A DNA stretch of 64,000 bases from Daphnia pulex (taxonomy: Eukaryota > Arthropoda > Branchiopoda > Diplostraca > Daphniidae): contig NC_060021.1 in the NCBI RefSeq assembly GCF_021134715.1, forward strand, positions 7,348,501 through 7,412,500, given 5' to 3'. The notes below the pieces were generated by a model. It searched no databases and was not told the origin of the DNA. It worked only from the letters and a program-made list of their open reading frames with translations. Positions 37-53,913 of the stretch are shown one piece after another. The position numbers and the translations under genes were made by a program. How positions within the stretch are numbered: position 1 is the first letter of the stretch; each line of letters begins with the position of its first letter.

Positions 37-2394
37 GCTTAACTGATGACATCACGGCTTTTACATCTTCCGTCGCCCATCTTTACTCTCATCTCACGAA
101 ACCTATTTTAGATCTGGTTCTTATCACCATTTCACTCTACAATATTGGAAAGGGAATGGGAGGATCCGGGGTACCTGGTATGGAATTTTACTACTTTTTT
201 TCTTTATTTTTTTAATTTGCAGTTGTATATTTTTTTTAAAGAAAAAAACTAATAAAATTGTTCTCGTTAAAGGTCCACTTTTGGCAGCTACTGTTATCTT
301 CCTAACTGGTCAAATTTTGAAGGCCGTTTCGCCCAAATTTGGAAAACTGGTAGCGGATGAAGCCAACCTGAAAGGTTATTTACGCTACATTCATTCGCGA
401 ATCATCGCCAATGCGGAAGAAATTGCTTTCTATAATGGGCACAAGGTATCATTATAGCACCGTGTCCCTTCACACATGAATGATGTCCCTTTTGCTAACT
501 GAAATTTGTCGAGGCCATTAGGTTGAGTTGAATCACTTGAACCGAGCCTACAAAGCCGTCTGCGACCAAATGATATCCATTTTCTCTCAAAGACTGTGGT
601 ACATTATGCTGGAGCAGTTTTTGATGAAGTATGTTTGGTCTGGTACAGGAATGGTTATGGTCTCGATTCCCATCATTCTCGGCAACAAAGGTTCGGGATT
701 GTCTCTCAAATTTTCTTGCACTACATTTTTGACTTTTTATTGTTTTATGTACTGCAGACCAGGAACATAGCAAAGACGGAGGTGTGAGTTCTAGAACGCA
801 ATATTTTACAACGGCCAAAAACATGCTAGCCTCCGGCGCTGATGCCGTAGAACGCTTGATGACATCTTACAAAGTGCGTATGACATTCCTACACGAACTG
901 AGAAATCAACAGAATCCTAATTAGTTGTGCTTTTGCAATGCAAATTAGGAAATCGTGGAGCTAGCGGGTTACACATCTCGCGTTGGAAACATGTTGGATG
1001 TTTTTGAGGAAGTCGGACGGGGCCATTACGAAAAGCCATCCATCAAGGGCAATTCAAAATCGGGACAGAGACAGTGGGAGACCCTTCGATTGACTGTGAA
1101 AAATGGTCTACCCATTGCCACGGGTATAAAAACGATAGACGATAGCAATAAAAAAAAAGTCCTTCAAATCAAATTCAAACATTGCAAAACAAATTGTTCA
1201 TTTTAGGTGAGTTGACTGAATATTCTGACGGAGTTATTTCCCTGGATGACGTTCCAATTGTGACACCAAATTTCGATGTTGTCGTCCCCTCATTATCCTT
1301 GAAGGTAACGCGCGGTTGGATTCAGTGCATAGCCTAACCGTTGCACCGGGTTTTGAAACTTTCACTTTTTGTGACGCAGGTTGTCAAGGGTATGCATCTC
1401 TTGATAACTGGACCGAACGGTTGCGGAAAAAGCTCTCTGTTGCGTATCCTCAGTGGCTTGTGGCCCGTTTATAGAGGCAAATTACATAAGCCCCCAACGG
1501 AGGACATGTTTTACATCCCGCAACGGTCGGTCTCTTTTGTTGACTTAACTCGTAACAACTGACAACTAAAACCTTTGTGATTCTAATTTACTTTTTTTTC
1601 CCTAACGCATTATAGCCCCTACATGTCTATCGGCAGTTTAAGGGACCAGATTATTTATCCCGACACGCTAGAAGAGATGAAAAACAAGCGAATTACGGAC
1701 GAACATTTAGATGAGATTTTACAGCAGGTTCACCTTGCTCACATCGTTCGACGTGAAGGTGGCTGGGATGCAGCAGCTGATTGGAAAGATGTCCTCTCAG
1801 GAGGCGAAAAACAACGGATGGGAATGGCCAGGCTTTTTTATCATAAGTAAACATTAAGGGATTTTCATTATCTCAAGTCCAACTATAGCTCAATATCTTT
1901 CCCACAGACCGCAGTTTGCCTTGCTGGACGAGTGTACTAGCGCAGTCAGCATTGACGTCGAAAGCCAAATTTATCAAGCTGCCAAAGATGCTGATATTAC
2001 ACTTCTCACTATCACCCATCGCCCATCTTTATGGTGTGTTCAAAAAAATATCCAAAAATTCTGCTAGTTGAAATTACGCAATCGGATTGTATTTTTTGTA
2101 GGAAATTCCATACGCATCTGCTTCAATTTGATGGTGAAGGCAAGTGGACTTTGGAGCCATTGAATACTGAAACCCGGCTTACGCTCAAGGAAGAGAAACA
2201 GCGTTTGGAGGCGCAGCTGTCTGGCATTCCTCGTATACAGGATCGTCTGAAGGTGACCTTGCCAACTGGTTTGTGCCAATTTCGTGTTAACTAACAATTT
2301 TTTTACTTCTAACAACAAAAAACAGGAATTGTGCGTTCTTTTGGGAGAAGACTCGTCTACACAAGAGGAAGTGGAGTCCAACTCTTCCGATTGA
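37..2394 (+). CDS. Abcd1: Peroxisomal ABC half-transporter, ABCD1/ABCD2 type (3' part)
   Basis: ATP-binding cassette subfamily D half-transporter, which in this family dimerises in the peroxisomal membrane to import very-long-chain fatty acyl-CoA. The 5' end lies outside the window. Exons read: 37-177, 273-445, 522-690, 758-873, 949-1123, 1207-1304, 1380-1525, 1616-1846, 1908-2033, 2102-2252, 2326-2394. The first five carry the C-terminal half of the membrane domain, including [16 protein letters not shown] and [10 protein letters not shown]. The nucleotide-binding domain follows with Walker [10 protein letters not shown], the signature [12 protein letters not shown], Walker [13 protein letters not shown] and the H-loop ITHRP. 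The frame is open across all joins and ends at TGA 2392-2394. The sequence is closer to ABCD1/2 than to ABCD3, but one invertebrate gene may represent both ABCD1 and ABCD2. Confidence 0.93.
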
Positions 2395-3424
2395 TTCAAC
2401 CCATCAAATTCAGTTCAGTTTTTCATGTTTAGCTGAGGAAAAATCATTCAGCAAACTTTACCCTCTTAGTCAATTAATTATGAATTATGATTTAAAAACA
2501 ACATGCGGTGTGATAGCGCGTTAGTCCCAGTCGCTCAGAAAACATATTTTTTGGGGTTCTAGGTTTAGATAGAATACTCCTTTTTTTTCAGTTTTTTTCA
2601 ACAATATTTCCAAATTTAAATTTCCTTGTTAGTTTTTTTGTTGGCTGGCTGGAACCTAGAACCAGTTTCGATTCCTTCTCCCAATTGTACTAGTCCAATT
2701 TGACGGGCACATGTTTTCGGCATATTAACAGTGCTACGTGAAACCCCGTCGTTATTTTTAATTATTTAGTAAAATCCCTTGTTGTTTTGCAAATGACGGA
2801 TCTTTACTGACATTTGCTCGAAATCGTTCATGATAGAAATTACTCCACATTTTCTTTAATCAGGGTCAAAATTGCTGATGATTACGAGAAGGAAGCCGCA
2901 ACCGGAAAACATTTTTGTTGTTAGATTTTAAAAAAAAAAAAAAACCCTTTCACTCAGCAGCACCCAATTGAGACATAATATTTCAATTACGTAATTATCT
3001 TTAGTCACAATTGTTATTCAACTCGAAAGCCAGAAACATCGTGCCATCGTTTCAATTTGTGGAACTTTTATGGCTGGCCGTTTTTCTTTCAAATTTACGC
3101 GGTATTTTACCATGTCAGTCACTTTTCTTTAAGGGCATTGCTTGATCCTGTACAACTTGTTCTTTACTTGATTAGTTTAGTGAAAAATAAATAGATATGC
3201 TGTATATCAATATTTTAGCCTTCAACTCCACTCGCAGTTATTTACATAATATACACGCAATCGGCAGTTCCCATTTCCGCATAAACAATAAACAAAAGAT
3301 CACGTGATTATAATAAAAAAAGTGATTTGATGCGTTGCCGCTAGATGTCGTTTCAAGTTTGAAGCCATCTAGCGCGATCGCCAAGACTTTGGTGCCCAGC
3401 GAATGAAAGGGAAAAAAATAATAA
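2395..3424. other. Intergenic: ABCD 3' flank and Raf upstream region
   Basis: AT-rich, with poly-T and poly-A runs (a 15-base A run near 2930-2944). An AATAAA lies at 3186-3191, late for the ABCD gene but usable as its poly(A) signal. No coding exon was recognised. The Raf promoter should lie in the last few hundred bases, but no TATA box is evident. Confidence 0.6.
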
Positions 3425-6400
3425 ATGGAAGAAGAAGGGGGAGAGAAAAAAAATCGGTCCAAGATGGCCGTGAACGAGACTCTTCTCGGCAGTACAATGA
3501 CGAATTTCACCCTTCCCAGCCCTAAAAGACATCGCAAATATGAAGAAACAGGAACGATTCACGATGAGGTGACTATCTATTTACAGTGTTGTTTGGTTCG
3601 CTCGAAGAATGACATCCAGGAAAGAGATCTCTGAGAAATGTCATTTCGTTTCACTTTCCACCGGGATGTTTGGCTTTATTCTTTTTGACGCTATCGAAGC
3701 ATTCCATCTGCAAAATTAATTCATATCGAAGAGGACCATTCCCGAAAACAAAGTGCTCCAAAAAAGAATCCCAATGGTTTGATCGCTTTAAGTGGAAAAG
3801 TTTCTTGGGAACACTGTCCCACTGAATTGTTTTGATTCAGTGACAGCCTCAAAACAGACATTCAATATCATATCAATTGAGGTCCATCATTGAGCATCAA
3901 CTTCAAAATGCCTACTTATCTTTTCAATAGTGTTTTGCTTGATACAAGGCTTTCTAATTCATTGTTTCTTGTGTTTTCTTTGCAGCTGCGGAACATTCAA
4001 AGTGTCATTCGCCTCACCAAAGAAAATATTGATGCGCTCAATGCACAGTTTGCTGGATTCCAACACCCACCCTTGATGTACATAGCTGTAAGTGCAATTC
4101 AGTTTTCTTTAGTTCCACCCCTCAATTTCCCTTCTGAAAGCTCATTTATCATCAAAAGTCGAATAAAACTACATTTGCAGATTTTCCATAGCGCAGCCAG
4201 TTTTTCCACTAAAACATAGCTGTCTTTGAACAAATCTATAATCTCTATGTCCTACTCATTTCATTATGACATCAGAATGACTTGGTTTTTGTTTTTCAAT
4301 AGGAATACAATGAATTGACAAGCAAATTGCACGAATTCAAAGCCCGAGAGCAAGAACTCATCGAAAGAGTAAGCGCAGCTACGGCATCCAATGGACGACA
4401 AAGTCCTGGTGGTCACGAGTTGGAAGATTGTTCCGATGCTGAATTGCCACCACACCTCAAAACAGGATTTGGGCCAGATGGAGGTGGTCATCATCATGGA
4501 CACCAGCAACAACAAATTCATCATCAACAACAAGCTCCCGGTCCGCCTTTAATTGCTATCCCTCCTCCTCCTCGATCACCTCTAAAGTCGGTAGTGCGAG
4601 CATACCTGCCCAACGAGCAACGGACGATCGTACAAGTCAAACCCGGCCAAACTGTGCGTGAAGCCCTTTCAAAAGCTATGAAGCTGCGCAAGCTGGACCC
4701 GTCCACGTGCGCGGTCTATCGATGCACACAGCCTGAGGTATTACAAAACAAGTTACACGCATAACAATAATGTCAATATTCCCCCATTTTTCTCCCCAAA
4801 GGTTAAAGTACAATGGGATGCCGATATAGCTTCAGTCGAAGGTGGAGAGATTCGTGTTAAACTTAAGGATAATTTCTCAGCCACAACCAGCATATCTCAC
4901 AATTTCGTAAGTTTACAAAAAATCAGACGACATTGGTTTACATTTCAATCGTTAATTTAAAACTTGATTTGAAAAGGTGCGCAAAACATTCTTTTCTTTG
5001 GCTTACTGCGAATCCTGCCGACGCCTGCTCTTTCAAGGCTTCTATTGTCGGACGTGCGGATATCGTTTTCATCAGCGTTGCGCTGCAGCCGTCCCTCCCT
5101 TGTGCAATCCGGCTCACGTAGCCGAAAACACACTCCTACAGATGTGAGTAATCGTGTCGTAAAAGGAAATTGCGTTGGTACATCGTTGCGAGTCTGCTCT
5201 CATCCAATTTTCGCGTTCAAAAGCGTAGAGTGAAAATTTGATTGCATACCTAGAAGACCTTGGCCATAGTTTGAGATCAAAAGACTACGCTGAAGGTCTT
5301 CTAAGTACTTGGGAATTTTTTTTCTTGGAATTAAATTTAGGGGCGTTTTTTTGTCAGCAACAGAAACATTTTTGCTTTTACTTTTGTTAAATTATCAAGT
5401 TCCAGAAAGATTTAAAAAATGGCGAATTTCAAACATTCAATGACCTAATCCTGATTTGTATGGAATATTTGATAGGTTAATATCGTGTCCAGAGGGCCCC
5501 GTACCGTACCCGTACACAGCCGGCCTTACATACCCGCCGACATTCCAGCCGATGCAGATTCCTCGACGCCACCCTCCACCTCTAGCCCAAAGAGAACGAT
5601 CAACATCGGCTCCTAACGTTTGTTACAATATGGTCGGCAATCAAGGCGGCATCGATACCGCGTTAGAGGATTGGTCCTATCGTATCAAAGCTCACAACCT
5701 TGCTGCAACAGGTACGCCAAATTTTCATTATTCTTTTGCAAGTGTTTTATTTATTTTTTAAATCGGCTTGTAAGATGAAGTGGCTGACTCCGTCTTAAAA
5801 TCCCTAACATTGATTCACAATTTTTTGTTTTCGTTTTTATCAACCAAATTATTAAGTGCACGAAATTTTATTTTTTTTTTGCCTCGTTTACATTTGGTTT
5901 TCTTTTCTTTCCGTTTGCCTGTTGCAAATTTTCGTTAAATCCACACAAAAAAAAACCCGAAAACAAAACCCAAAACCATCGAATCCGCTGTGTGTGGGGA
6001 ATCCTGCGTGTACACAAAACCACTGAAACCCGACCTTAAAATCCTCAAACAAAACAAACAAAAAACCACAGAAGCTGGCCTGATCAGTTTAACACGTTTG
6101 GTACAAAACGGCGGAGGCCGGAGCAACAGCAACAAAGGCTTGAATGGCATCCGGGAAGAGCAGCATGAGAATCAGCCCCCTGAGCCGCAACAGCAACAAC
6201 AACAGGCGCATGTTCCCGGGAGGCATGCCTGGGCTCTCCCGTTCACCAACCTGGCTATCGGACTTACGTTGCCCACCTGTGCGTAACCTAACCCCCAAGT
6301 CATTTTTTTTTTCACCTCAGTTTTTCGCGATTATTTTCTGTCCGTCTTATGAATTTGTATTGGATCCAAAATCATAAAAGAACTAATAATCAACAACTCT

Positions 6401-8336
6401 AGTTGCCCTAGTAAAACAACAAAAATCCCAATTCTTGAATTGCGCTTTTCTGCTGATTTTGGATCGTCAATGAAAATGCTTCGACCTTGCTTGCTTCATT
6501 TCCTCCTTTACGTCACCCCTTCTGCACTTCGATTCATATTTGCTTCTACCTTTAATTTACAAATTTTTTTGAGTTTTTTTTTAATTGTTATTTTATTTGA
6601 ACCGCTAATTTGACGCAATTTACTATCACGTTTTTGCATGCTTCGCGCCTTTTGTTAAATCACCACCAGCCAACAACAGCTACTTCCACCGAGGTAAATT
6701 TCAAAGGGCAGACAGTCGTCATTTAACTGAACTTTTTAAAATATTCGTTGGATCAAAAAATGGGGTCGATGTTTCAAACTAATAATCCGCTTCTTAACTT
6801 GATAGTAACAAATTTCATGGGAGGCGGCGGAAGCGGAGGCAACGGAGGAGCCCCACCCACCCTGAGTGGTCTTGGCGGAGCTTCCAGTCCGGGTAGCAGT
6901 CCGACTAAACCGTCGCATAGTCACAGTGCACAGGCCAGCCCAACCAATACTTTACGGCCATGGAGACCACGAGCAAGAAGCGCGGACGAAAGTAGCAAAA
7001 AGGTACAACTCAAAAGGTGGAAAAGTAACAAAAAGTGGATGATTTATCATATTGAAATCAACAGGTGCGAGCGTCTCGCGAATCGATCGAAGATTGGGAG
7101 ATTCCCGCAGACGAGATCCTCATTGGGCCGCGCATTGGTTCTGGCTCCTTCGGAACTGTATATCGCGGACACTGGCACGGCCCAGTCGCTGTCAAAACCC
7201 TCAATGTCAAAGATCCGACACCAGCTCAGTTACAGGCATTCAAAAACGAAGTGGCAGTGTTGCGGAAAACCAGGCAAGTGTTCACATCAGTTGTACTAAG
7301 CAATTAATACTCGTTAATGAACACAATTCATTTAATGGAACCATTTTTCCCGTTAGACATGTCAACATTTTACTCTTTATGGGTTGCGTGAGTAAGCCGC
7401 AATTAGCCATCGTGACGCAATGGTGTGAAGGTTCATCCCTGTACAAACATCTCCACGTTCTCGAGACCAAGTTCGAGCTTCTAACACTCATCGAAACAGC
7501 GCGTCAAACAGCTCAGGGCATGGAGTAAGTTGTGTCGCTAACCAATGTAGACGAGTGAATATTGAATTCTTCTTCTCGTCAATTTTTAGTTATCTTCACG
7601 CCAAGAACATTATCCATCGCGATCTTAAAAGCAACAATATATTCTTGCACGACGACCTAACTGTCAAGATTGGAGATTTCGGTCTTGCCACGGTCAAAAC
7701 ACGCTGGTCAGGATCTCATCAGTTTCAGCAACCTTCGGGTACTTGCTTTTTACCAAAAATTAAGGAAAACACATCCAATTCGTTTGTTTCTATGTTAGGA
7801 TCAATACTTTGGATGGCGCCGGAAGTGATACGCATGAAGGATGAAAATCCGTACAGTTTCCAGTCAGATGTGTACGCTTTCGGTGTTGTCCTCTATGAAC
7901 TGTTTAGTGGCCAGCTACCTTATTCGCACATCAGCAACAAAGATCAGGTATAATTCAATTAGGAATTCAAAAAGGAAAAAAAGTGGTGTTAAAAGTTCAA
8001 TCGAATATTTTCTAGATATTGTTCATGGTGGGCCGAGGATTCCTTCGTCCTGATTTGAGTCACGTTCGATCAGATACACCGAAAGCGCTTCGCAGGCTAC
8101 TGGAATCGTCGATCAAGTTTACGCGAGAGGAACGACCTCTTTTTCGCCAGATACTCGTCTCCCTCGAAAGTCTGTCTCGTTCCTTACCCAAAATCCATCG
8201 CTCCGCTTCGGAACCTACACTGAGTGGAAGTCATTTCCAATCAGAGGATATTTACTTCGCCTACGCCCTGCCCAAGACTCCTATGAACGCCCAATTCGGC
8301 GCCTTTCCTCTATTCAATACGGGAGGTGTCATTTGA
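3425..8336 (+). CDS. Raf: Raf serine/threonine kinase (B-Raf type)
   Basis: MAP kinase kinase kinase that is recruited by Ras-GTP and phosphorylates MEK. Exons: 3425-3568, 3986-4087, 4303-4737, 4802-4906, 4977-5143, 5476-5711, 6806-7002, 7065-7273, 7357-7524, 7590-7738, 7799-7947, 8016-8336; 793 aa. Order: a B-Raf-like N-terminal region ([16 protein letters not shown]), the Ras-binding domain ([20 protein letters not shown]), a C1 zinc finger ([13 protein letters not shown]...HQRCAA), a serine-rich linker with the 14-3-3-like RERSTSAPN, then the kinase domain. Kinase motifs are [37 protein letters not shown] and APEVIR, and the tail holds a second 14-3-3 site (RSASEPT). ATG 3425 opens the first exon; an in-frame ATG at 3464 is a possible alternative start. 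The intron after 7273 is GC-AG. Confidence 0.95.
6072..6278 (+). other. Raf: Candidate in-frame cassette exon of Raf
   Basis: Within the 1.1 kb intron between Raf exons 5476-5711 and 6806-7002, the stretch between CACAG (ending 6071) and a good donor GTGCGT (6279) is exactly 207 nt. It enters and leaves in phase 1 and has no stop in that phase. It would add 69 residues, including a Q-rich run, between the C1 domain and the kinase domain. The acceptor is weak because the 30 bases before it are A/C-rich instead of pyrimidine-rich. Direct splicing 5711 to 6806 also keeps the frame, so the exon may be optional or unused. Confidence 0.4.
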
Positions 8337-25504: not shown

Positions 25505-26258
25505 TTACATCTCACCACATTGGGATACAGACACTGGAATCTTGGGTTTGTTGTTCGGCCCAGTAGGGACATTCTCAATTTTCCTCACCACGAGTAAACC
25601 ATCTAGAACTCTGCCAAATACAACATGCTTGCCATCCAAGAAATCACACTTGGAGCAAGTTATGAAGAACTGAGAGCCATTTGTGTCTCGTCCACTATTT
25701 GCCTGTAACAAAATCATTTTCAGACATAAATAGTGAAGTTCAAAGTTAATTAAGATCTGAGCAAACTAATTACCATAGATAGAAGTCCAGGGGAATCATG
25801 CTTCAAGTTGAAATTTTCATCATTGAAAGTATCACCATAAATACTTAAGCAACCAGTTCCATCTCCCTATGTTAAGGAATTAACAGGTTGTAAACCAAAC
25901 TAAAAAATGTTTTACTAAACATTTTACTTACATTAAGAAAATCTCCTCCTTGAATCATGAAATCCTTAATGATCCGATGAAAAGATGTCCCTTTAAAACC
26001 AGTTGGCAACCCGTCTCGTTTGAATTCTCCTGTGCAGAATTGCCGAAAATTCTCAGCTGTCCTTGGTACAACATCAGCAAACAGCTCTATGATGATACGT
26101 CCAATATCCTGTTTTCAACCACTATAATTAAAACAAATGTTTAAGAAAATGGAATAAGCTATATAAAATCTTACTGTTGATCCAACTGTTACATCCAAGA
26201 ACACCACCGGATTATTAGGATGCCTCAATTGCCCTTGAATCTGATTCCATGTCGGCAT
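25505..26258 (-). CDS. Ppih: Peptidyl-prolyl isomerase H (snRNP cyclophilin)
   Basis: Cyclophilin that binds PRPF4 in the U4/U6-U5 tri-snRNP and assists spliceosome assembly. Exons from high to low: 26175-26258, 25932-26108, 25774-25866, 25505-25702; 183 aa. The N terminus [20 protein letters not shown] is followed by the cyclophilin fold with catalytic residues in [15 protein letters not shown], the PPIH-type [33 protein letters not shown] and the C terminus [11 protein letters not shown]. That C-terminal half is diagnostic for PPIH over other cyclophilins. The gene points away from LSM5, with a transposon between them. Confidence 0.95.
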
Positions 26259-26403
26259 TTTAAATCGAACGCACACGTTATGTTGGTCGTTACAGCTTTG
26301 TAGCAGACTACGAGCTGACAAATGAGCGTCCAAGGTTACCTAGCAACGACAGCTGAAGCTCAGTTTTCAGTTTTCGTCTGCTGTCAAAACTTAACGGTCA
26401 CGC

Positions 26404-26504
26404 CTATTGCACTCCGGGGTCCGGAGCGCTCTAGTGTCAAAAGTGGCTATTGCACTCCGGAGTCCGGAGTCCTCTAGCGTCAAAAGTGGCTATTGCACTC
26501 CGGA
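26404..26504 (+). repeat. Left terminal inverted repeat of the transposon
   Basis: 101 bp made of two 43 bp monomers, each beginning CTATTGCACTCCGG and ending CAAAAGTGG, plus a 15 bp start of a third. The monomers differ at a few sites (AGCGCTCTAGTG versus AGTCCTCTAGCG). It matches the right copy at 100 of 101 positions; the mismatch is at 26418. Confidence 0.9.
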
Positions 26505-28086
26505 AATTTATGGCGACGAATGGCAAATAACGACTGATTCTGTGTTTAACATAAATACCATTCAGCCTGAGTTCAGAGTCTGTCTTTCATTCAAGCTTCA
26601 ATTATAGTGTGAAAGAAGAGGGAGTTATGCACTGATCTGTGGTTTCACCTTTGTTACAATATCGTACAACAGGTCAACAGCATGTGATGAGTTTTTGAGA
26701 TTTCCCCAAATGAAAAACAAACCTGATGCCTTCAAGAAATTAGTGTTTGACATTTTGAAAAAAAAAGGATCATGTTTGAAAAGTGAGATTTTACTTATTT
26801 CATCTATAAAAGTTTTAAGGTTTGCAGGATTAGGGGTTTTCGCTATTTCTTTACGTTTACGACCTGATCATGACTTTATATCACATAAGAAGAATGTTCT
26901 TCGATATCATTTAATAATGAAAGAAGTTGAGTGTGTATAAACAAAAACAGTAGGTTTACTTTCTACTCAAATTTAACACAATATATTTCACATAATCAGT
27001 TCAATCCTGGGTTTGTATACATGAGGCTACATAATAAGGTATTTATTTTTTACATTCGTGACAGAACCATTCGTCATCGTCGAGGAATATTCTTTTTACA
27101 ACATAAGGGAGATAGATGTTACAAAATACTGGTAGTCAAAAAGAGGAGTGGTTAACTTTGTTTATGATTATCTCCGCGGCGTTGGAACCTAAAGCAACCC
27201 ATCATCAAAGGACAAGGCGCTTCCATATTCCGCTCTTAAAGGATCTTTGATTGACGCCGCACCATGTGCTAATTCTTTCCCCTTAAAATCAATTACTTTT
27301 TCATTGTCAGTTCATTCATGTGATGACAAAGCACCGAGTGAAACTGAACACGAAAATACCAAGTATTTTTTCGCACTCACAATTCAGTTAAAATGTCTTT
27401 TGATATTCTCACTATAATAAAGTAAACTGCATCTGCATGTTAACTTAGTTTTGTATTGTTTTGTTTCAAGATATGAAAGACGTGTTTAGCTGTTAGTTTA
27501 TTGGAATAAGAGACACGGGCATTGCATGGTTTATAGCGTGAAATCAGCTGAATCACACGTTACGTGTAAATCAGCAGAAATAGTGAGTTGCTGGTCAATG
27601 CGTTTGAAGGTCACAAAGAACCCCTCGAAGCCCCGTTCTGAGAACTCCGGCTCGACTTTCAGGCAGGTAAGGGGCGACAAAGGGTGACTCACTATATGCG
27701 TTTATAACGTGTATAAATCCTTACACTGAGCAAATAGAGCGAGAAATTGAAATGGTTAACAAGAAATATCACCCTGAATTGAAATGTTTATAAATTCTAC
27801 TTTATTCCTGTTGCAAGACACTTAACTATATTTACAATTTGAATTTTAAGGTACTGATTCAATGTTGGACATTGTACTCTAAACTCTAGCTAAGTTAACG
27901 ATAACGAAATAAAAGTTCTTTCTATACACTGACTATTTTTATTTATTAGTGATATTCAAATATATATGATTGTTATAAATACATTTTATTTGAATTTCCA
28001 AAGAAAAAAAATCTAAACCATTCAAATTTCAAAACACAGAAACAGAATGCCATCGGTCGCCAAATGAAAGTACTACATATTTCCAT

Positions 28087-28187
28087 TCCGGAGTGCAATA
28101 GCCACTTTTGACGCTAGAGGACTCCGGACTCCGGAGTGCAATAGCCACTTTTGACACTAGAGCGCTCCGGACTCCGGAGTGCAATAG
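28087..28187 (-). repeat. Right terminal inverted repeat of the transposon
   Basis: Reverse complement of 26404-26504, with the same two 43 bp monomers plus a 15 bp partial in the same order from the outside in. Near identity of the two ends suggests recent insertion or concerted change. Confidence 0.9.
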
Positions 28188-28263
28188 ATTTTACCAAACT
28201 TAACTTACAAATTTTCGAAGTTGGCGTGGAAGACATTTCATTTTTTCCCTCTAATTAAATAAA

Positions 28264-28665
28264 ATGGCTGCACCAGTACCCACGCTTTTACCTCTGGTAA
28301 TACTTTTTTAAAGTTATGCAATTAAATCTTCACCTAAATTTGGTGTGGTATACAGGAGTTGGTTGATAAATGCATTGGTTCAAGGATCCACATTATCATG
28401 AAGAATGACAAGGAAATAGTGGGAACTTTGCTAGGGTTCGACGATTTTGTCAACATGGTGCTGGAAGATGTGTCAGAATTTGAATCTACTCCAGAAGGAA
28501 GACGTGTGACTAAGCTAGACCAGATCCTGTTGAATGGAAACAACATAACTATGGTAAGGATGCTATAGCAACATAATTTATTGTCTTATTACTTGAACTA
28601 ATAGCCATTTCATGATTGATATTTAGTTAGTTCCTGGTGGAGAGGGACCAGAAGCTCATTCATGA
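28264..28665 (+). CDS. Lsm5: U6 snRNA-associated Sm-like protein LSm5
   Basis: Sm-fold subunit shared by the LSm2-8 ring on U6 snRNA and the LSm1-7 mRNA-decay ring. Exons: 28264-28296, 28356-28553, 28627-28665; 89 aa (human 91). The Sm1 motif includes [20 protein letters not shown] and [13 protein letters not shown], and the Sm2 motif is [16 protein letters not shown]. The start encodes [11 protein letters not shown]. It is divergent from PPIH; without the inserted transposon the two start codons would be about 200 bp apart. Confidence 0.96.
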
Positions 28666-51846: not shown

Positions 51847-52108
51847 AAAATTATTAAATTTCTCATATATAAAAAAAACCTTCCGTTTAAATTTTTCCAC
51901 CCGTTAATAATGAAAAAATTATGAATTTTTCCTTATAATTTTCTATTCTATATCCACGTCGTTCATATTCATGCGCTAGATGTCCTTCTCGAGTCTTTAC
52001 AGTGCACGTGGTTTGGCTGGTTACTGTTTAGTCTTTAGTGTTGAATCGTTCCCTGCTCCATTAGTGTGGCTTTTTGGTTTATCCTTGCTACTTCAATCTC
52101 GCAGTAAA

Positions 52109-53913
52109 ATGGTAAATACAAGAAGAAAAAGCCAAGTTTTACCAATTGATCCATTAGCTGCGGAGCAATCTGATTCATCGACGACAAGTGCGACCAGAAG
52201 ATCCACGAGACGTTCAGTCGGAAACGTACTAGCAACCCCCGTGGAAATTCCCACGCCAACTAGAAGATCAAGGCGCCTGTCAAATTCCTCGGTAGAATCA
52301 GCTAATAATGACACACCAAGACCAGGTACACGTCGTTCTTCCAGGATTAACAAAACTGCTGGAAGTGACGCTGAAACAAGTGATGTAGAATTAGTTGTCA
52401 TTAAAAGGCGTAAGTTGGGGGAAGGTGTGGACACATTAATACCAATCAGGGAAGAAAAAAATGAAGATCGTGCCAATCCTTCTGAAGACAAGGAAAAGCA
52501 CATTTTGGTTGAACTCGAAGAAGAGATTGAAGATGAAATAAAGAAAAAGAGCAATGAAGTCGAAGAACTTAACAAAAGCATTCAAGCTGAAGTTGATGAC
52601 AAGATCATTAAAACTGAAGTAGTTTGCAAAACTATTGAAGCTGAAGTTGATAGCAAAACCATCAAAGTTGAAGTTGAAAGCAAGACCAACGAAGCTGAAA
52701 TTGATAGTAAATGTAAAGAATCTGAAATAGAAGTTGTACTTCCGAGTAAAGAAATTGAAGATAAAATCATCAGGCAAGAATCACCTGTAAAAGCAAGTAA
52801 GGCTGAAGAGCTGAAGACTGAAGATACTGATAGTCATGAAGACAAACTGGTAAACATCAAGTTGGATGAAGTTGACAATAGCAGTTTGAAATCTGAAATT
52901 GCCATTGAAATCATTGAAGCTTGTAAGGAAAACTCACATTCCAGTGAGGAAAATCATGAAAAATATTTCACTCCAGTATCCACTCCAACAAACTTGATTG
53001 AAGTTGAAGATGCTACTAAGCAAACTGAGAAGATGGATTGCTCAACAAGTGAAGAGCAGCAACCTTTGACAACAGCTGAGGTTGCATCTCCAAAAAGCCG
53101 TGATGGGGAACAGCAGCAAGAAGAAAATAAATGCCTACAGAGTCCACTTAAAGAAACCAATGTAAAAGCTGATTCACCTGTAAAGTCTGATGTTGAGAAG
53201 CCTCGTATGTTGTTTGGTGTTCCAGTAGAAAAAATCACAATTGGTACAACATTAAATATGAAAAAAATTGGTAAGCATCTTGATTTTTCTATAATGACTT
53301 AATTTTTTAAGTACATACATCATATTTTTACAGGAAAAAAATTGAGGGATGAAAAGAGGAAAATGCGCATAGCACACAAAGTTCGAGTGAAAAAAATCGA
53401 ACCTCCCAAAGAAAGTCTACCGTGTGGTGCTGATGTAATGCGGAATATTCCCAGAGGGAAATCAAAATCTGGACGCGAGTGGAAAGAACCAAAATCCAAG
53501 TATGTTTGTGTCCTTATTTGTAGTTCAAAATGACGGTAAAATAATTCTCTGATTTTGTTTTCCAGTCCTCGATATTTATACCAGGACAAAGGTTTGAAAA
53601 TGCCCTTTGAAAAGATCACACAGTTGAGACAAGAGCGTCAACGAGTTAAAGAGTTGGAAAACCGCATGAAGGAAGAAGAGCGAGCCCGCCGAGCTGAAAT
53701 TACTCGTCGTCGTGAAGTAAATAAGAAACGCGAAGAAGAAAATGCTCGTCGTGGAGAAGTTGTTCAAGTGGTAAGATGTCTTCCATCTAATATAATTAAC
53801 TTTGTATCTAATAATTTATAATCTTTCAGATTCGAAATACCAACAAAATAAAAAGGATGAAGAAAAAGCAGCTGAAGTTGATTCAAAAGCGGGATACAAC
53901 AAAAGTGGTGTAA
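52109..53913 (+). CDS. Ccdc86: CCDC86/Cgr1-domain nucleolar protein
   Basis: Homolog of coiled-coil protein CCDC86 (cyclon), a nuclear protein with the Cgr1 domain of yeast rRNA-processing factor Cgr1. Exons: 52109-53270, 53334-53499, 53566-53770, 53830-53913; 538 aa. The long N-terminal part is low in complexity: arginine/serine-rich (TRRSTRRS) then highly acidic, with degenerate repeats. The conserved part is C-terminal: RGKSKSGREWKEP, a K/E/R-rich coiled coil (KMPFEKITQLRQERQRVKEL) and EVVQVIRNTNKIKRMKKKQL, diagnostic of the family. ATG 52109 (MVNTRRKS) is chosen because it opens basic nuclear-type sequence; an in-frame ATG at 51980 would add a hydrophobic 43 residues unlike the family. 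Confidence 0.85.

Follow-up and report, generated by a model that had tools for sequence, protein, structure and literature searches.

A Probable Non-Autonomous, Internally Deleted Mutator-Like Transposon in the PPIH-LSM5 Promoter of Daphnia pulex

Introduction

Cut-and-paste DDE transposases bind both ends of an element, cut, and insert it at a staggered cut. Muta1 provides a precedent for an active Mutator-like element (MULE) in animals (PMC5225508), and several described groups share parts of their anatomy or coding capacity with the element presented here. Rehavkus, a Repbase group reported from arthropods and annelids and used as a MULE outgroup in one published comparison, is characterized there by a 9-bp target duplication, terminal inverted repeats (TIRs) of 26-400 bp, a PHD finger, and a minisatellite before the 3' TIR (PMC6446971). 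In Rehavkus-1_TC of Tribolium, a repeat with a 164-bp unit is described in the inverted termini (PMC10218199). A minisatellite after the ORF is also mentioned for some Phantom elements, so the feature is not exclusive to Rehavkus (PMC6446971). Tm1 of root-knot nematodes is assigned to the Phantom subclass of Mutator/Foldback (PMC3169594). MULEs associated with a Ulp1 protease are named from hydra, lancelet, Arabidopsis, maize, rice, and melon, and, according to a figure legend of the same paper, Ulp1 and PHD domains from the transposases of Ginger1 and of Mutator are aligned there (PMC2836005). From D. pulex itself, Schaack et al. (2010) described ten Mutator families, MutatorA1-A10, all of them called similar to Phantom (PMC2884549). 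Tetris, a foldback element of Drosophila virilis with duplications of 8-10 bp, was assigned to Mutator by the length of its duplication (PMC4079207), and Galileo is classed in the P superfamily (PMC3573991; PMC4079207).

The window analyzed here is a stretch of 64,000 nucleotides of the D. pulex genome (C5:7,348,501-7,412,500), in which a sequence-only reading had noticed an inverted-repeat transposon of Mutator- or Foldback-like anatomy. We are highly confident that a young MULE family is represented here by a DNA transposon that is internally deleted and non-autonomous, because the ends and 9-bp duplication of the element are those of the family, and because it has sister copies and full-length relatives with transposase exons in the same genome.

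Anatomy of the Element

The element occupies positions 26396-28195 of the window (1,800 bp, read from the sequence to the base) and is flanked on both sides by a perfect 9-bp direct repeat, the target-site duplication AAACTTAAC, whose left and right copies lie at 26387-26395 and 28196-28204, respectively. The left TIR (26404-26504, plus strand) and the inverted right TIR (28087-28187, minus strand) are 101 bp long and consist of two 43-bp monomers and 15 bp of a third, i.e., 2.35 monomer copies. The inverted-repeat search delimited arms at 26404-26505 and 28086-28187 (102 nt, 99% complementary, with a spacing of 1,580 nt), and the tandem-repeat search returned a period of 43 bp repeated 2.3 times in each. 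The single difference between the left and right TIRs, GGGG versus GGAG, lies in the first monomer. Outside the TIRs proper, eight more bases form the left tip GGTCACGC (26396-26403, plus strand) and the right tip ATTTTACC (28188-28195, minus strand; GGTAAAAT when read inward). The outer GGT of the tips is inverted (GGT...ACC), and the remaining five bases are mostly unlike between the ends. With three mismatches allowed at most, a search with 22 nt of the monomer matched the window at four places, all inside the TIRs, versus 0.00 expected from 100 shuffles. No Rfam match at gathering scores was obtained across the window. The sub-repeated TIRs with their one-base difference, the additional terminal bases, and the 1,800-bp element with its exact duplication had all been proposed from the letters alone, and they hold to the base in the repeat searches and in the comparison with other copies.

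Copies of the Family in the Genome

The search covered the genome to which the window belongs (133,188,837 bases, 133.2 Mb, in 13 contigs). Twelve contigs measure 6.6-16.3 Mb. The thirteenth has 15,333 bp, and translation of its first 5,000 bases with the invertebrate mitochondrial code gives long frames recognizable by eye as mitochondrial proteins, including cox1. An array of (CCTAA)n, corresponding to (TTAGG)n, the common telomere repeat of arthropods, stands at the start of C9 and C10; it is not seen in the first bases of the ten other large contigs, one of which starts with N. The left 125 bases of the element matched at least 37 places, a lower bound; 30 of these matches pair into 15 copies with two TIRs, namely the window copy and L031-L044. 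The other seven, L045-L050 and a piece at C3:7,786,522, hold one TIR or a fragment by an exact 14-mer criterion and stand outside the 15. Other copies with 9-bp duplications, which the sequence-only reading had recommended looking for, are thus present in number: such a duplication flanks all 15 two-TIR copies, exact in 14 and with one mismatch in L031 (ATCCACTTA/ATCAACTTA). Thirteen of the exact duplications, that of the window copy included, were established by comparison, and the one of L042, TTACGTCTT, was read by eye, as was the loss of approximately 9 bp of one tip in this copy. The 15 duplications are all distinct sequences, with an A+T content of 73% overall.

The ends of the copies are equally uniform. 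The 8-mer of the right tip recurs at one end of all 15 copies and that of the left tip at the other end of 14, so that the pair GGTCACGC and GGTAAAAT is incomplete only in L042. Two and a third monomers (2.35) are found at both ends of every copy, when point variants and the tip missing from L042 are included. In nine of the 15 copies (L034 and L037-L044), the arms are prolonged inward by an inverted, imperfect repeat of the right end; they reach approximately 290-435 bp including the TIR, with 71-78% identity, and in this respect they resemble foldback elements. Viral contigs were also searched for relatives of the element; 11 pattern matches were obtained, and none of them was confirmed.

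The joined flanks of 14 of the 15 loci (L042 excluded) were used as queries for empty sites genome-wide, and 40 of 248 candidates were scored. Paralogous matches that span the junction were found for at least four of the 14 sites, although they are of unequal quality. They occur for L034 at no fewer than five places (79-92% identity), for L044 at six or more (73-79%), and for L041 (77%) and L032 (95%) at one or more each; three places were aligned for L034, three for L044, and single ones for L041 and L032. The best paralog of L034 (C8:6,927,496, 92%) carries a single, uninterrupted ATTTACCAT, versus the two copies of this sequence that enclose the element in L034. The second aligned paralog of L034 shows a short gap at the site, and the third has one base altered within the nine. 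The alignments for L044 cross the site and show substitutions there. Weaker matches are those of L041, whose alignment is gapped at the duplication, and of L032, whose alignment covers just 22 bases on the left side and has a T stretch interrupted by single-base gaps. Empty sites exist as paralogous sequences for other loci of the family, but for the site of the window copy, where the earlier reading had recommended looking for one, only the locus itself was present among the scored matches (40 of 248 candidates).

These data bear on the idea that the segment is not a mobile element but an old palindromic or duplicated piece of host DNA, or else an artefact of assembly. An assembly artefact may exist in this genome, as suggested by features of C2 that recur at a distance of exactly 194,000 bp. 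Nevertheless, 15 two-TIR copies with 15 different 9-bp duplications, together with the paralogous empty sites, refute such an origin of the window element, and we consider its probability virtually nil.

Full-Length Copies with Transposase Exons

Three of the copies are full-length: L031 (C5:259 kb) and L032 (C3:125 kb), both of 6,835 bp, and L033 (C9:155 kb), of 6,997 bp. Two of the 6,835 bases distinguish L032 from L031 (99.97% identity). The identity between L031 and L033 is 99.58% over 6,597 bp, with a difference of one unit in an internal array of 162-bp period. This minisatellite comprises 4.4 units in L031 (oriented 264-977) and 5.4 units in L033 (264-1139); it follows the last exon found and precedes the 3' TIR, and it is missing in the window copy. 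The difference of one unit between otherwise nearly identical copies raises the possibility that the array changes fast. The TIRs of the full-length copies differ from those of the window copy at one of 101 bases on the left and at none on the right.

The stop-free frames of L031 are found again in L032 and L033. L031 was searched against Pfam in ten pieces, five of which yielded either no match at 0.1 or a single weak one of an unrelated kind. Among the others, exons matching ZSWIM3_N (4.8e-7) and ZSWIM1-3_RNaseH-like (PF21056, 1.6e-18) were identified, as well as two DDE exons matching MULE (PF10551). The first DDE exon scored under the cut-off of 27.6 bits (8.3e-5, 23.4 bits) and the second, which includes the second D, just over it (3.1e-6, 28.0 bits). 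A SWIM match fell just under its cut-off (0.0011; 18.9 versus 19.6 bits), a Peptidase_C48 match exceeded its own (1.2e-5), and a PHD match in the last exon remained under the cut-off of 24 (0.0011, 19.3 bits). In the PDB, this last exon matched a Ulp1-like SUMO protease (8e-5) and PHD fingers of the ING4 type (approximately 2e-4, best 1.9e-4). Candidate acidic residues of the DDE triad were located by eye in VEVDGTY, in TISDKD, which is followed by CQFH (CxxH), and in TTNRLE, and the protease exon, likewise examined by eye, has the H, D, Q, and C residues expected of Ulp1. In a genome-wide scan, the RNase H-like match in all three copies crosses two TAA past the exon frame, as it would at an intron. 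The DDE, SWIM-like, Ulp1, and PHD domains of the L031-type gene may be parts of one protein, and judging by these matches L031-L033 appear to encode a Mutator-type transposase. For the autonomous relatives that the sequence-only reading had recommended looking for, candidates with exons of the MULE/ZSWIM-type DDE class are present in the same genome.

Mutator-like anatomy was proposed before these copies were known, and it is borne out by the two features by which MULEs are recognized: a target duplication of 8-10 bp, mostly 9 bp, which is 9 bp at all 15 loci, and a relative that shares these ends and carries an RNase H-like DDE transposase, represented here by L031 (PF21056, PF10551). Long TIRs with internal tandem repeats, as in the structural definition of Foldback, are also present. 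Such TIRs occur outside MULEs, and the likeness to MULEs could in principle have arisen by convergence of the TIRs in an element from a different superfamily (e.g., P), of the Foldback type or similar to Galileo. However, the full-length copies with almost the same TIRs hold MULE/ZSWIM-type DDE exons, and 14 of the 15 duplications of 9 bp are exact, which makes a different superfamily very improbable. It is doubtful, though conceivable, that the family comes from a branch of the MULEs that stands closer to the ZSWIM1/3 proteins of animals than to the classical MULE profile, and that its window copy is now a component of the promoter shared by two spliceosome genes; if this were true, the family would be a live transposon relative of the host ZSWIM1/3 genes.

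Counted per exon, the genome holds at least 80 matches to the Ulp1-PHD exon and at least 55 to the Pfam MULE model, and MULE relatives with a Ulp1-PHD tail may accordingly be numerous. At C2:5,607,426-5,610,398, a MULE domain and a Ulp1-PHD match lie within 3 kb. None of the three full-length copies is more than 266 kb away from the start of its contig; C9 starts with telomere repeats, and C3 and C5 do not. One of the 12 shorter two-TIR copies, L042, lies less than 0.5 Mb from a contig end (approximately 0.3 Mb from the end of C11).

Comparison with Known Systems

In its sequence features, the element resembles Rehavkus, Tm1, and the foldback-like MULEs. With Rehavkus, as tabulated in PMC6446971, the family shares an arthropod host, a 9-bp duplication, a TIR length within 26-400 bp, and a minisatellite before the 3' TIR (the 162-bp array of L031 and L033, beside the 164-bp unit of Rehavkus-1_TC). 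The putative PHD finger in the last exon, recognized by the ING4 match and by a Pfam score under the cut-off, may be a further common feature if it is spliced to the DDE exons. Whereas the zinc finger listed in that table is PHD, and Ulp1 is not named, L031 also has ZSWIM3_N, SWIM-like, and Ulp1 matches; the comparison is one of descriptions. The likeness to Tm1 as described in PMC3169594 concerns the asymmetric short end motifs (7 bp in Tm1, 8 bp here), which lie external to TIRs composed of tandem repeats, the prevalence of 9-bp duplications, and the existence of non-coding copies beside coding ones, a single one with a MULE transposase in the case of Tm1. The repeats themselves are different, with a unit of approximately 14 bp and a variable number in Tm1, as opposed to 43 bp and a constant 2.35 copies at both ends of the 15 copies, and the variable TIR repeat number of Tm1 has no counterpart in this family. 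The term 'ulp' is absent from the main text of the Tm1 paper (PMC3169594).

The combination of a MULE transposase with a Ulp1 protease is shared with the hydra, lancelet, and plant elements named in PMC2836005, although the host is different. MutatorA1-A10 belong to the same species and superfamily and, compared by description, may include this family (PMC2884549). Tetris has a similar foldback anatomy, but no coding copy of it is reported in PMC4079207, whereas coding copies exist here. No description of this MULE family was found in the open-access literature searched; Daphnia was absent from the titles of the open-access Rehavkus papers and from their main text where searched, and nothing in the open-access literature was found to join ZSWIM or ZSWIM3 with a Mutator transposase, or to combine Ulp1, a PHD finger, and SWIM in a MULE. 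The family is possibly catalogued in Repbase already. The suggestion of a new family may hold at the level of the family only, as composite TIRs have been published for MULEs before, and so have Ulp1 or PHD domains.

The Window Copy as a Deleted Derivative

Compared with L031, the window copy has kept both ends and element positions 5543 to 6835. The corresponding part of the window (27082-28195, minus strand), which extends from a point upstream of the first transposase exon found to the terminus, is 85-93% identical to the full-length element and lacks one unit of an internal repeat of approximately 223-229 bp. The retained region starts just upstream of this exon (L031 1826-2242, approximately 5121-5537 in the orientation of the element), and none of the exons searched for is left in the window copy. 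The sequence-only reading had seen no transposase and considered the element potentially non-autonomous, which agrees with these results: no transposase was seen in the window copy, where the longest stop-free frame has 110 aa, and the coding relatives lie elsewhere. Five frames of the window copy gave nothing in Pfam but one weak unrelated match at 0.024.

An internal segment of 534 bp (26548-27081) is missing from L031-L033 and is common to L035 and L036 (98.5-98.7%). Two frames in it, of 110 aa and 80 aa, matched nothing in Pfam. The segment partly matches a piece at C10:1,806,300-1,807,300 (78% over 153 bp), and its 110-aa frame has four matches in the genome: its own, those in L035 and L036, and a weak one at C10:1,806,842. 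A captured host gene was considered for this segment and rejected, as the 110-aa frame is without a Pfam match and has no genome matches beyond these four. The alignment to L035 covers all 1,800 bases of the window copy with 14 mismatches (99.2% identity) and one gap of 229 bp, about one unit of the internal repeat. The shared segment and this alignment place the window copy in a small subfamily of three deleted elements, together with L035 and L036. On the basis of these alignments, we regard the window copy as an internally deleted, non-coding derivative of the full-length element.

Timing and Mechanism of Movement

The high identity of the two TIRs had been read as a sign of recent activity. 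Eight of the 14 other copies (L031-L033, L035, L036, and L042-L044) carry the GGGG/GGAG difference at their left ends too; hence, it was inherited and is not a mutation that followed insertion. Dating by the divergence of the left and right TIRs was rejected for the same reason. The recency itself is supported by the identity between copies: L040 and L041 are 100% identical over 1,612 bp, L037 and L038 are 99.9% identical, and L031 and L032 are 99.97% identical. Since the copies in each pair have different target duplications, this points to recent movement of the family. Recency thus stands, on grounds other than TIR identity.

The transposase from a full-length copy would bind the repeated 43-bp monomers at both ends and cut at the GGT...ACC tips. 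The element would then be joined into staggered cuts 9 bp apart, and gap repair would create the 9-bp duplication. Deleted copies could move in trans by means of the enzyme of the full-length copies, and the window copy was probably mobilized in this way; the family may still be active at present. A non-coding element is in this manner linked to its likely enzyme source within one genome. The full-length copies, deleted derivatives, duplications, and empty sites together make the history of transposition and deletion traceable, and the family looks young enough for polymorphism among isolates.

The Host Locus

PPIH and LSM5 are divergent genes, and the window copy is inserted in the short promoter between them. 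The first exon of PPIH (cyclophilin H; 26175-26258, minus strand) was delimited by its ATG and splice site, both recognized by eye, and exon 2 (searched as 25935-26102) matches PPIH (1mzw) at 2e-28. The first two exons of LSM5 span 28264-28553 (plus strand), with the ATG recognized by eye and exon 2 (28356-28553) matching LSm5 at 5.8e-37. The left duplication is 128 bp from the ATG of PPIH (start at 26258), and the right one is 59 bp from the ATG of LSM5 (start at 28264). Without the element and the extra copy of the duplication, the two start codons would be 196 bp apart (128 + 9 + 59). With the short promoter of these two conserved splicing genes divided by the element, the locus offers a simple test of the effects of insertion. 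A TIR, or the retained region upstream of the transposase, might by now have become part of the LSM5 and/or PPIH promoter. The short distances to both start codons and the retention of the segment upstream of the transposase exons speak for such co-option, but the window copy is young, as its 99.2% identity to the sister copy L035 indicates, and we consider co-option rather unlikely.

Other Observations

On C2, the members of three pairs of features are separated by exactly 194,000 bp: 10,898,620/11,092,620, 10,958,099/11,152,099 (L046/L045), and 11,040,924/11,234,924. L045 and L046 are identical over 8,001 bases. The pairs probably reflect a duplicated assembly block, or else a very recent tandem duplication. 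L034 contains a nested insertion of 3,908 bp (oriented 695-4602) with the ends CAGAGTTGCCG...CGGCAACTCTG and a 7-bp repeat GGAAACT, recognized by eye. It holds a 434-aa frame without a significant Pfam match and appears hAT-like by eye only. Elsewhere in the window, at 51980-53302, a 440-aa frame without a Pfam match holds tandem repeats of 27/54 bp at approximately 52570-52711.
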